A stretch of DNA of 64,000 nt from Onishia taeanensis. Lineage in GTDB: Bacteria > Pseudomonadota > Gammaproteobacteria > Pseudomonadales > Halomonadaceae. The stretch spans positions 62,001-126,000 of the forward strand of contig NZ_JABVXC010000009.1 in the NCBI RefSeq assembly GCF_013349955.1, written 5' to 3'. Every line of letters begins with the position of its first letter. Position 1 is the first letter of the stretch. The notes beneath the pieces are model-generated. The model was given only the letters and a program-made list of their open reading frames with translations, made no database searches and was not told where the DNA came from. Both the position numbers and the translations under genes were made by a program. Shown here piece after piece: positions 19,815-63,664 of this stretch.

Positions 19815-21284
19815 ATGCAAGAACGTCAGGTTGATGTCGCCATCATCGGTGCCGGTACCGCCGGGCTTGGCGCCTACCGCGCCGCCAAGCAGCACACCGA
19901 CTCTGTGGTCATGATCGAAGGAGGCCCATACGGTACTACATGCGCTCGGGTGGGCTGCATGCCCTCGAAACTCTTGATCGCCGCTGCCGAGGCCGCCCAC
20001 CAAGCCGCTGACACCGACGCCTTCGGCATCCGCCTCAATGGCGAGATCACCGTCGATGGTGCGGCGGTAATGGAGCGCGTAAAACGCGAACGTGACCGCT
20101 TCGTCGGCTTTGTCCTCGACTCGGTCGGACGCATCCCCGCTGGCGACAAACTTACTGGCTATGCCCGCTTTGAAGGCCCCAATACCCTGGTCGTCGATGA
20201 TCACACCCGCGTACACGCCAAGCGGGTAGTGATCGCCAGCGGCTCACGACCCAGCTACCCAAGCTTCTTCGAGGCGGCCGGCGATCGTCTGATCATCAAC
20301 GACGACGTCTTCGAGTGGGATGATCTACCGGAGTCGGTTGCCGTATTCGGCCCCGGCGTCATCGGCCTCGAACTCGGCCAAGCATTGCATCGCCTCGGTG
20401 TGCGCCTGAGAGTGTTCGGCGTCGGCGGCGCCTTGGGCCCTCTGCAGGATGAGGCCGTACGTAACGTCGCGGACCGCACCTTCAACCAAGAGTTCTACGT
20501 CGATCCCGATGCTCAGGTCGAGGCCATCGAACGTGACGGCGACAGCGTGGTGGTGACCTTCCTCGAGCGCGACAGCGGCGAGCGGCTGACCGAGCGCTTC
20601 GACTACCTGCTGGCGGCGACTGGGCGTCGCCCCAACGTCGACCGGCTCTCGATCGAGAACGCCAACCTGACGCTCAACGATAAGGGCGTGCCCACCTACA
20701 ACAGCTTTACCCTGCAGTGTCGCAATACCGATGGCGGCCCCAGTCATATCTTCATTGCCGGAGACGCCGACCAGGACCTGCCCCTGCTGCATGAAGCCAG
20801 CGACGAAGGACGCATCGCCGGCGACAACGCCGGACGCTACCCGGAAATGCGTGCCGGCCAGCGCCGCACACCGTTGGCGGTAGTGTTTAGCGATCCACAG
20901 ATAGCAACGGTAGGCCTCAGCTATGCTGAACTCGAAAGGCGTTACGGCGGATGTGACTGCCTGGCCAGCGGCGAGGTGTCTTTCGAAGGCCAGGGCCGCT
21001 CGCGGGTGATGCGAGTCAACAAGGGACTGATGCGGGTTTATGCCGAACAGGGCAGCGGACTCTTTCTTGGCGCCGAGATCTTTGGCCCCCGCGCCGAGCA
21101 CCTGGCGCACTTGCTGGCCTGGGCACAACAGCAGCGCATGACCGTCGCCCAGATGCTGGAGATGCCGTTCTATCACCCGGTCATCGAAGAAGGCCTGCGT
21201 ACTGCCCTTCGTGACCTGAACGCCAACCTGCAGCTCGGTTCTCGGATCATCGAGCGCTGCATGGAATGTGGACCGGGCGACTGA
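19815..21284 (+). CDS. Dihydrolipoyl dehydrogenase-like flavoprotein disulfide reductase
   Basis: 489 aa, class I pyridine nucleotide-disulfide oxidoreductase. FAD site [15 protein letters not shown] near residue 9; redox-active pair in [12 protein letters not shown] near residue 45 (Cys-X4-Cys); second dinucleotide site [16 protein letters not shown] near 178; FAD-contacting FIAGDA near 316. The C-terminal active-site region HPVIEEGL carries the His-Glu pair. Canonical E3 enzymes have CLNVGC and HAHPT, so this is a divergent Lpd-like branch. No dehydrogenase complex genes lie nearby, so its partner is unknown. The CBS gene follows 58 bases later. Confidence 0.88.
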
Positions 21285-21342
21285 CCCAGCCCGGGGCCAA
21301 GTGACGCAACGGGTCACTACCGTTGAAGCGAGGAGACTGACG

Positions 21343-21756
21343 ATGCCACAGACCGCTCCCAGTATCGTACGCGATATCATGTCCCGCGATTGCTACCGGG
21401 TGACCGGTAACACCTCGGTCACCCAACTGGTCAAAGGCCTTGCACTGCACAGGCTGCCAGGTGTTCCGGTCGTGGATGGCCGGGACCACCTGATCGGCTT
21501 CATCTCCGAGCAGGACGTGCTCGGCAAGTTGCTGCAGAGTGCCTACCTCAACGACGAGGCGCCACTGGTCAGGGAACTGATGCGCCATGAAGTCCTGTCG
21601 GTGACGCCTGCCAAGAGCATCACCGACCTTGCCCAGGAAATGCTCGGCACCAAGCCCAAGGTCTACCCGGTCGTGGAGCAGGAGCGCTTGGTGGGCATCG
21701 TCACCCGTCGTGACATCCTCAGCGCCATTCTGCAAATGCGCGGCGGGCCCCACTAG
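21343..21756 (+). CDS. CBS domain-pair protein
   Basis: 137 aa from ATG 21343 with AGGAG upstream. It consists of two CBS domains (residues about 8-65 and 75-132; MSRDCYRVTGNTSVTQLVKG and MRHEVLSVTPAKSITDLAQE open them), ending RLVGIVTRRDILSAIL. Such stand-alone pairs bind adenine nucleotides and act as energy sensors for partner proteins. Co-oriented and close to the flavoprotein gene, so the two may be co-transcribed. The partner is unknown. Confidence 0.88.
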   Translation: MPQTAPSIVRDIMSRDCYRVTGNTSVTQLVKGLALHRLPGVPVVDGRDHLIGFISEQDVLGKLLQSAYLNDEAPLVRELMRHEVLSVTPAKSITDLAQEMLGTKPKVYPVVEQERLVGIVTRRDILSAILQMRGGPH

Positions 21757-21810
21757 GCAGCAGCGGCCAGTACCGCTCCAAGCCACCCCAGCATCAACCC
21801 AGAGATCCCG

Positions 21811-21835
21811 GCCCGGCCTTTATTCAAGGCCGGGC
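21811..21835. other. Strong GC-rich hairpin after the CBS gene
   Basis: GCCCGGCCTT / AAGGCCGGGC, a perfect 10 bp stem with a 5-base loop, 55 bases after the CBS stop. Neither strand shows a T-run after it, so termination may be Rho-dependent or the hairpin may protect the mRNA end. Confidence 0.6.
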
Positions 21836-21890
21836 CGCGCTCGTCACGCTTGCGCCTGGATGGCCGAGCGAGCCAATCAACCGTACAGGC

Positions 21891-21920
21891 AAAAAAAACG
21901 CCATGTGTAGACACATGGCG
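21891..21920 (-). terminator. Intrinsic terminator on the minus strand without an obvious gene
   Basis: CGCCATGTGT / ACACATGGCG inverted repeat followed on the minus strand by eight T residues: a textbook Rho-independent terminator. No protein gene is read leftward into it; the nearest upstream minus-strand sequence is the 180-base gap up to the tRNA. Confidence 0.8.
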
Positions 21921-22012
21921 GTAAGGATCGGAACCTGAGTAGTTCACTCCTCGCAGCGACTGCTATCGCCAAGGAATTTGTACTCACCATCTGTGACCAC
22001 GCCCTAGCGAAA
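21891..22012 (-). ncRNA. Candidate small RNA ending at an orphan terminator
   Basis: The 90-120 bases read leftward into the terminator contain no plausible ORF but have small stems (GAGT-N5-ACTC; GCGA-N6-TCGC) before the terminator hairpin and T-run, the layout of an Hfq-type sRNA. A GATAGT -10-like hexamer lies at 22013-22018 on the minus strand, but no good -35 was found. It does not match an sRNA family I can name. Hfq is encoded in this window. Existence is inference. Confidence 0.35.
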
Positions 22013-22105
22013 ACTATCCTTCCCCAGGAAAAAATTCTGAGGCTGGCATTTCACGGCCCGAGGCTAGACGCTGTCTAACACATTGGTTACAGTGCGTATC
22101 GGCTC

Positions 22106-22179
22106 GCGGGTGTAGCTCAATGGTAGAGCAGAAGCTTCCCAAGCTTAAGACGAGGGTTCGATTCCCTTCACCCGCTCCA
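22106..22179 (+). tRNA. tRNA-Gly (CCC)
   Basis: 74 bases with encoded CCA. Acceptor GCGGGTG pairs with the 3' CACCCGC; D-arm GTAGCTCAATGGTAGAGC; anticodon loop TTCCCAA with CCC at 22138-22140; T-arm GAGGGTTCGATTCCCTT. Very close to E. coli glyU. Base pair 27-43 appears to be a mismatch (G-A). A T-rich stretch at about 22232 could serve as its 3' end. It borders the accessory region that starts at 22314. Confidence 0.95.
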
Positions 22180-22313
22180 TAAGCCCGCCTCATCCTGTCC
22201 AGATTGCACTCCCCCTCCTCGCAATCATCTGTTTTTCTTAACGCTACCGATCTCGCCGGCTGATCAGCATGCGCAGCGCTGAAAGCTGTGTATGGCTTAA
22301 CGCATGGAGAGAA

Positions 22314-22339
22314 TGAACCGTACCGGGATTCCCGGAGGC
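22314..22339 (+). repeat. IS left inverted repeat (IRL)
   Basis: 26 bases starting TGAACCGTACCGGG, matched by the complement of 23606-23631. It marks the left boundary of the IS. Confidence 0.85.
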
Positions 22340-22363
22340 TCCAAACCTTGAGAGGATGGAGCC

Positions 22364-23592
<1,229 letters not shown>

Positions 23593-63294: not shown

Positions 63295-63540
63295 TCAGCT
63301 TTCCTCGGCCGCCGCAGGGTCTTGGGCGGGCAGGCGCACGTTACGCGACGGCACAACCGTCGAGATAGCATGCTTGTATACCATCTGGCTGACGGTATTG
63401 CGCAGCAGGATCACGAACTGATCGAAGGATTCGATCTGACCTTGCAGCTTGATACCGTTGACCAAGAAGATCGATACCGGAATGCGCTCCTTGCGCAGGA
63501 TGTTCAGGTAAGGGTCTTGGAGGGACTGCCCCTTGGACAT
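63295..63540 (-). CDS. hfq: RNA chaperone Hfq
   Basis: 81 aa from ATG 63540 (SD GGGAGAG). Sm1 region [20 protein letters not shown] and Sm2 [12 protein letters not shown] are intact; the C-terminal tail is short ([12 protein letters not shown]). It forms a hexameric ring that pairs small RNAs with mRNAs. Position between miaA and hflX is the classic gammaproteobacterial order. Confidence 0.98.
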
Positions 63541-63664
63541 TTTGCTCTCCCTAATCTGTCTCTTTGATGTCGTTTTTATCGGCCTCGGCGCGGCATATAC
63601 CACTCCTCGGCTCGAATAGTGTGCGGCTCGAAAAGTGCGAACCAATCCAACCGTCTATCTTACG

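Follow-up and report, generated by a model that had tools for sequence, protein, structure and literature searches.

The window, a 64,000-nucleotide stretch of Onishia taeanensis DNA, very probably encodes a trans-acting small RNA (sRNA) of about 100 nt that is found across much of the Halomonadaceae, would be made upon envelope stress and would repress the major porin by bracketing its start codon. The gene comprises promoter-like blocks, a long hairpin whose cap is conserved, a UUUCGAUC segment predicted to be single-stranded, and a terminator; the RNA is complementary to the porin mRNA and varies together with it. On this basis the sRNA most likely switches the major porin off, probably under envelope stress.

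The predicted sRNA gene and its genomic context

The predicted gene forms a conserved unit on the minus strand at 21891-22021, the parts of which are given in Table 1; the 5' end of the RNA was placed from the promoter blocks and the 3' end from the terminator. The initial annotation had proposed an independent leftward sRNA gene beside tRNA-Gly, which is supported by family-wide conservation, a hairpin kept in shape, synteny and a co-changing target. Its range of 21891-22012 was too short, as the conserved unit ends at about 22021. The terminator had been described as a 10-bp hairpin followed by eight T residues on the minus strand. Strand and T-run (21898-21891) are as described, whereas the stem has 9 bp and a 4-nt loop (CGCCATGTG-TCTA-CACATGGCG, minus strand, 21920-21899), because a tenth pair would shrink the loop to 2 nt. 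The absence of a gene upstream of the terminator was also found on reexamination: none is seen on the minus strand, and the CBS-domain gene, ending at 21756, and tRNA-Gly(CCC) both lie on the plus strand. A terminator scan of 20500-23500 gave 3 sites versus 1.9 in shuffled sequences, which is weak statistics when taken alone. The 140 nt ending at the terminator fold with -52.5 kcal/mol compared to a shuffle mean of -39.1 (z -3.5), and 0/200 dinucleotide shuffles were as low.

Table 1. Positions of the predicted sRNA gene, its parts and the neighbouring tRNA gene in the window
Feature	Position	Strand	Evidence
Intrinsic terminator, 9-bp stem, TCTA loop and U8 tail	21891..21920	-	Sequence, terminator scan, fold
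Predicted sRNA, ~100 nt	21891..21990	-	Conservation in 7/7 genus genomes, covariance-model matches, folds
Main long hairpin, TGAGTA ... TACTCA at base	21936..21986	-	Folds; hairpin statistics of 80 members
Apical hairpin GGCGATAGCAGTCGCT, 16 nt perfectly complementary to codons 6-11 of own porin	21955..21970	-	
Segment TCAGGTTCCGATC, 12/13 positions of which pair with the porin 5'UTR sequence GATCGAAACCTGA	21926..21938	-	
-35-like block GGATAGTTTT, degenerate compared to GAACTTTT of the family	22010..22019	-	Conserved in Onishia
-10-like block GTCACA of a putative sigma-E/AlgU-type promoter	21992..21997	-	GTC core is the anchor of the family set
tRNA-Gly(CCC), divergent neighbour and synteny marker of the sRNA locus	22106..22179	+	

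Other elements were noted in the surroundings. A near-perfect inverted repeat (CGGCCCGGCC...GGCCGGGCCG) at 21809-21837 follows the CBS-domain gene and is probably its terminator; a permissive Rfam scan gave sub-threshold mir-3130 matches on both of its strands. An insertion sequence starts about 185 nt past tRNA-Gly(CCC), from 22364 onward, and contains an HTH_Tnp_1 transposase ORF (22364-22684) and an ALIL frameshift pseudoknot (RF01497, 22642-22758). The initial annotation stated that the window also encodes Hfq, and the minus-strand ORF at 63298-63654 is Hfq-like by its sequence motif and is taken here to be Hfq.

Distribution in the Halomonadaceae

The element is present once per genome in 7/7 genomes of the genus. 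They align densely between the -35-like block and the T-run, with unalignable flanks on both sides, so that the conserved block reaches beyond the terminator. BLASTN of 58 genomes detected the element in 7, all of the same genus. A first covariance model built from six sequences matched 116/250 family genomes at E 0.01, weak false matches included. From the 90 loci gathered (30 + 60), 80 were kept as members; the ten dropped were L013, a near-duplicate of L012, L069 and L085, which are porin 3'UTRs, and L081, L082, L086, L087, L090, L093 and L095, judged by eye to be without the core motifs. A second model (R2), trained on 32 of the 80 members, matched 207/250 Halomonadaceae genomes in 15/24 genera at E 0.001, the 32 training sequences counted in. 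Among 390 genomes of the order R2 matched 14, all of them Halomonadaceae. A search of the plasmid collection gave no match. The two porin 3'UTRs come from genomes of group g11, G016 (L085, ~742-787) and G218 (L069), in which another porin-like gene ending in ALGARYHF carries GCATGTTTCGATCTTTACCGG and a terminator in its 3'UTR; together the two resemble the seed and 3' end of the sRNA.

Synteny with tRNA-Gly(CCC) is seen in 49/80 members, which have this gene somewhere in the 0.7-1.5 kb of flank that was fetched; ARAGORN detected no other tRNA in the fetched flanks. In g11 (mostly Vreelandella) it was found in the flank of 0/23 members. The distance to the tRNA gene is about 630 nt in G003, and none was found in the G001 locus. 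Past the sRNA 5' end, G001 has a gene (L005, 1745-2485) that, judged by its motifs, presumably encodes a metallophosphatase-like protein, and G003 has an apparent remnant of it (L006, ~1580-1976).

The initial annotation could name no sRNA family for this RNA, and no Rfam family fits it. At the gathering cut-off, Rfam 15 returned only tRNA and ALIL in the window and the loci of 15 relatives. The best match on the sRNA itself was ncS54, sub-threshold with 16.5 versus 43 bits; all matches at permissive E-values were sub-threshold and were taken as chance. Since there was no Rfam match and R2 gave no match outside the Halomonadaceae in the order sample, the sRNA was classed as a new family within a known kind of regulator, apparently distinct from MicA, RybB and VrrA.

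Structure of the RNA

A typical member has an A/T-rich stretch, then GAACTTTT-like and GTC-containing blocks whose spacing hardly varies, a long hairpin, the UUUCGAUC segment (in some members replaced by a close variant), pyrimidines and the terminator. The arms of the hairpin differ between members, while its cap is mostly GCGAUAGCAGUCGC or GCGAUGGCAGUCGC and is lost in L051. When the hairpin segment alone was folded for the 80 members, the mean z was -2.4 and 47/80 were below -2; four members were above -0.7 (L027 +0.3, L051 -0.6, L094 +0.5 and L098 -0.6). When RNAalifold was run on a MAFFT alignment of the whole family, only the terminator emerged, with 8 pairs, 6 of which have changes on both sides; the main stem was missed because its arms are too different to align. 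The main stem was recovered within the Halomonas/Vreelandella set, where 2/16 pairs are compensated, and within the genus 1/33 pairs are compensated. Covariation inside the sRNA is modest.

Complementarity to the porin mRNA

In a PF13609 scan of 12 genomes, 11 of which matched, the porin starting with MKKTLL(A/V)TA was found to carry two sites complementary to the sRNA. These are GATCGAAAC in the 5'UTR and GCGACTGCTATCGCC in codons 7-11, with small variations, the complements of the UUUCGAUC region and the apical hairpin, respectively. Porin genes were collected by the 14-mer ATGAAAAAGACACT, which overlaps neither pairing site; it is present in 69/80 sRNA-bearing genomes, and 11/80 are without any such gene. 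Subtracting nine other genes and two genes from genomes whose sRNA was not extracted (G016, G218) from the 77 genes with this start left 66 pairs. At the coding site, within the first 60 coding bases, the longest stretch of perfect complementarity has a median of 15 nt (range 10-19, n=66) and is at least 10 nt long in 66/66. The nine other genes that share the 14-base start reach 8 nt at most, and 300 control windows around rpoE reach no more than 10 nt. At the 5'UTR site the median is 8 nt (range 5-12, n=66), a match that alone is not beyond control length because the rpoE windows reach 10 nt. Compared to shuffled targets, the duplex energy z is below -2 in 56/66 (5'UTR) and 48/66 (coding) cases; the coding-site duplexes of G093 and G077 are not below this value.

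The porin of the window genome is encoded on another contig (G000:C33) and has both sites, the 16-nt match lying at +18..+33 and GATCGAAACCTGA pairing at 12 of 13 positions. The local duplex energies are -35.3 (coding) and -19.0 kcal/mol (5'UTR), the cost of opening the RNAs being excluded. Throughout the six Onishia genomes, pairing in the 5'UTR falls between -51 and -28 and pairing in the coding region spans +18 to +33 (codons 6-11). The longest other match to the sRNA is 12 nt in the window and 11 nt elsewhere, and in nine loci of the window genome (58,960 bases, both strands) a match of at least 11 nt occurs at the porin locus only. When the six Onishia genomes were scanned for TAAGGATCGRAACC, the complement of the seed, at 2 mismatches, the matches were not clearly more numerous than those of the reversed control (18 vs 18 in G000), so that the porin stands out only through its two sites together; the match at G000:C33:15796 is the porin site. 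The pattern GGATCGAA-N-ATG was above the reversed control in 19/20 genomes (25 vs 2 in G000) and was rejected as too unspecific, its control not being composition-matched.

Conservation along the porin gene peaks at both sites: UTR columns, at about 0.3-0.5 elsewhere, mostly reach 0.8-1.0 there, and codons 7 and 8 have the same third base in 68/68 sequences; codons 2-4 of this profile are fixed by the search 14-mer. The conserved UTR block is longer than the seed, reaching AAGCTAGT, and may serve something besides sRNA pairing as well. Sequence and conservation thus describe a putative trans-encoded sRNA, a conserved non-coding intergenic unit that ends in an intrinsic terminator and is partially complementary, at two sites, to an mRNA encoded elsewhere. 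Complementarity to an outer membrane protein (OMP) mRNA around the start codon is of the kind known from MicA, RybB and VrrA.

Coupled changes in the sRNA and the porin

Coupling is seen at porin codon 9, which is GCT or GCC (both alanine) and faces A or G in the sRNA. All 64/64 scored genomes have a matching pair (47 A-U and 17 G-C, 0 mismatched); G030 and G077 stand outside this count, as their apical loops misfit the search pattern, and agree by eye. When the two codon-9 types are cross-paired, about 10 nt are left of a perfect match that otherwise measures 15-16 nt. On the tree of the porin body, the best topology needs nine codon-9 state changes and well supported branches force four. The independent pairs agree in 4/4 cases (p 0.125), which is too few for significance, and the tree is that of the porin body and not of the species.

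Besides codon 9, coupled change is found in three other lineages. In G018, porin GTGACTGC goes with sRNA GTCAC, and in G116, G102 and G082, porin GATCAAAA goes with sRNA TTTTGATC; four further sRNAs with TTTTGATC face porin GATCGAAA, which yields a G-U pair. Onishia has its own version around CCTGA in both partners, with porin GAAACCT(G/T)A and sRNA CAGGTTTC/CAGGTTCC, and a mismatch inside the seed in 3/6. The sRNAs pair more strongly with their own porins than with those of other genera in 63/66 (5'UTR) and 52/66 (coding) cases. The Onishia sRNAs lose most at the 5'UTR site (-21.2 kcal/mol with their own porin vs -12.6 with those of other genera). Contrary cases, in which foreign sRNAs pair with a porin at least as well as its own sRNA does, are the g12 and g14 porins at the 5'UTR site and the g12, g2 and g6 porins at the coding site.

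Behind its one conserved start region, the porin gene has two strongly diverged body types, each present in several genera. This distribution suggests that the porin body was replaced or recombined and the regulated start retained.

Promoter and sigma factor

GAA[CT]TT is located exactly 20 nt before GTC in 56/80 members and 18-19 nt before it in 6, and is absent in 18. All six Onishia copies, including that of the window, belong to these 18, and the -35 blocks of Onishia, g12 and g21 are degenerate; within Onishia the block is kept (GGAGAATTCT in G004) and the spacer is variable. For AlgU promoters, the consensus GAACTT-N16/17-TCtgA has been published (PMC10651043), and the majority spacer of the sRNA family, N15 to TC, is one base short of it. 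Upstream of rpoE, 5/17 loci exceeded the 95% shuffle level (8.6 bits) and 12/17 did not, so that the promoters of sigma-E itself are poorly defined in the Halomonadaceae. The best of these sites, in G003 (GGAACTT...GTCACA, spacing 22), scored 14.9 bits compared to a shuffle maximum of 14.8. A strict sigma-E pattern had a single match in 5 genomes, in G116 at the sRNA position. On this evidence, sigma-E control is likely for the sRNA family and unproven for the copy in the window.

The same sRNA could instead be transcribed from another promoter, by sigma-70 with an activator or by another ECF sigma factor, in which case the envelope-stress reading would be wrong and the porin pairing would stand. 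This is a serious, if less probable, possibility, to which the short spacer and the degenerate -35 blocks lend weight, together with two further sigma genes in G000 that score far below the RpoE model cut-off. It is opposed by the combination of GAACTTTT and GTC at a fixed distance with a variable spacer, which is the sigma-E pattern, by the site upstream of the G003 rpoE and by a sigma-70 scan of 20500-23500 that found no site.

Proposed mechanism and alternative explanations

Upon envelope stress, an ECF sigma factor of the RpoE/AlgU type would transcribe the sRNA, and Hfq, the gene of which is present, would hold it at its U8 tail. Both the apical loop and the UUUCGAUC segment of the sRNA would pair with the porin mRNA, the apical stem having to open before the coding site could be reached. 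Pairing would flank the Shine-Dalgarno sequence and the start codon, thereby block ribosome binding and lower porin synthesis.

sRNAs can repress translation by pairing within the footprint of the initiating ribosome. The coding site covers codons 6-11 and lies inside this footprint, which makes it unlikely that the sRNA pairs with the porin mRNA to activate it, whether by undoing an inhibitory structure in the 5'UTR or by protecting the transcript from RNase. One pairing site does lie upstream of the Shine-Dalgarno sequence, and FoxJ of Fusobacterium is reported to be a sigma-E-dependent sRNA with an activating effect; against this, VrrA, an sRNA of similar design, represses ompA (PMC2628432). 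It is highly improbable that the region holds an orphan or bidirectional terminator, an attenuator or transcription debris beside the tRNA gene and no functional RNA. The near-chance result of the terminator scan alone would fit such debris, but promoter blocks, hairpin, seed and terminator are conserved family-wide between free flanks and co-vary with an unlinked gene. Equally hard to credit is a conserved DNA element or small protein gene in place of an RNA. The region, described as lacking an ORF in the initial annotation, is overlapped by a 37-aa ORF (21877-21990); this ORF runs through the terminator and is broken by one-base gaps between relatives, which speaks against coding. Moreover, the long hairpin is kept while its stem arms differ, and the complementarity is to an mRNA. 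Repression of the porin by a trans-acting sRNA is therefore the preferred reading.

Relation to known sRNAs and significance

In enteric bacteria and Vibrio, the repression of porins by sRNAs is textbook knowledge. The enteric MicA and RybB belong to the envelope stress response, repress the translation of OMPs close to the start codon and have their seeds at or near the RNA 5' end. The Halomonadaceae sRNA, in contrast, would pair by its hairpin cap and a segment between hairpin and terminator, and has no Rfam match. OxyS likewise pairs with fhlA at two separate places, close to the ribosome site and within the coding region, but by two short loop contacts; compared by description only, the coding match of the Halomonadaceae sRNA is a perfect complement of 10-19 nt. 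ErsA of Pseudomonas aeruginosa, which depends on AlgU, is likewise a gammaproteobacterial sRNA and is reportedly linked with Hfq and a porin gene, oprD. Other targets reported for it are algC, AmrZ and Anr. The sigma-E-dependent VrrA of Vibrio (PMC2628432) is similar in being intergenic, ending in a terminator, having a sigma-E motif conserved among relatives and pairing with the 5' part of an OMP transcript; it differs by its target ompA and its length of 140 nt, a separation made by description and Rfam only.

In the open-licence literature, as far as titles and the beginnings of abstracts tell, no natural sRNA of Halomonas or other Halomonadaceae was found. For this family an sRNA is now described together with its promoter blocks, its structure and its probable target. 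Because sRNA and target co-vary, compensatory mutation can test the interaction directly. Halomonas porin promoters are used as constitutive engineering parts, according to a paper that also covers a synthetic sRNA (PMC13101641). If such parts keep the native 5'UTR, the constructs may fall under the control of the sRNA. More tentatively, and with some doubt, the Halomonadaceae may have evolved a porin switch of their own, in which a family-specific sRNA bridges the start codon through two co-evolving sites and in which some Vreelandella might possess a second RNA, from the 3'UTR of another porin with a UUUCGAUC-like segment and terminator, directed at the same target.
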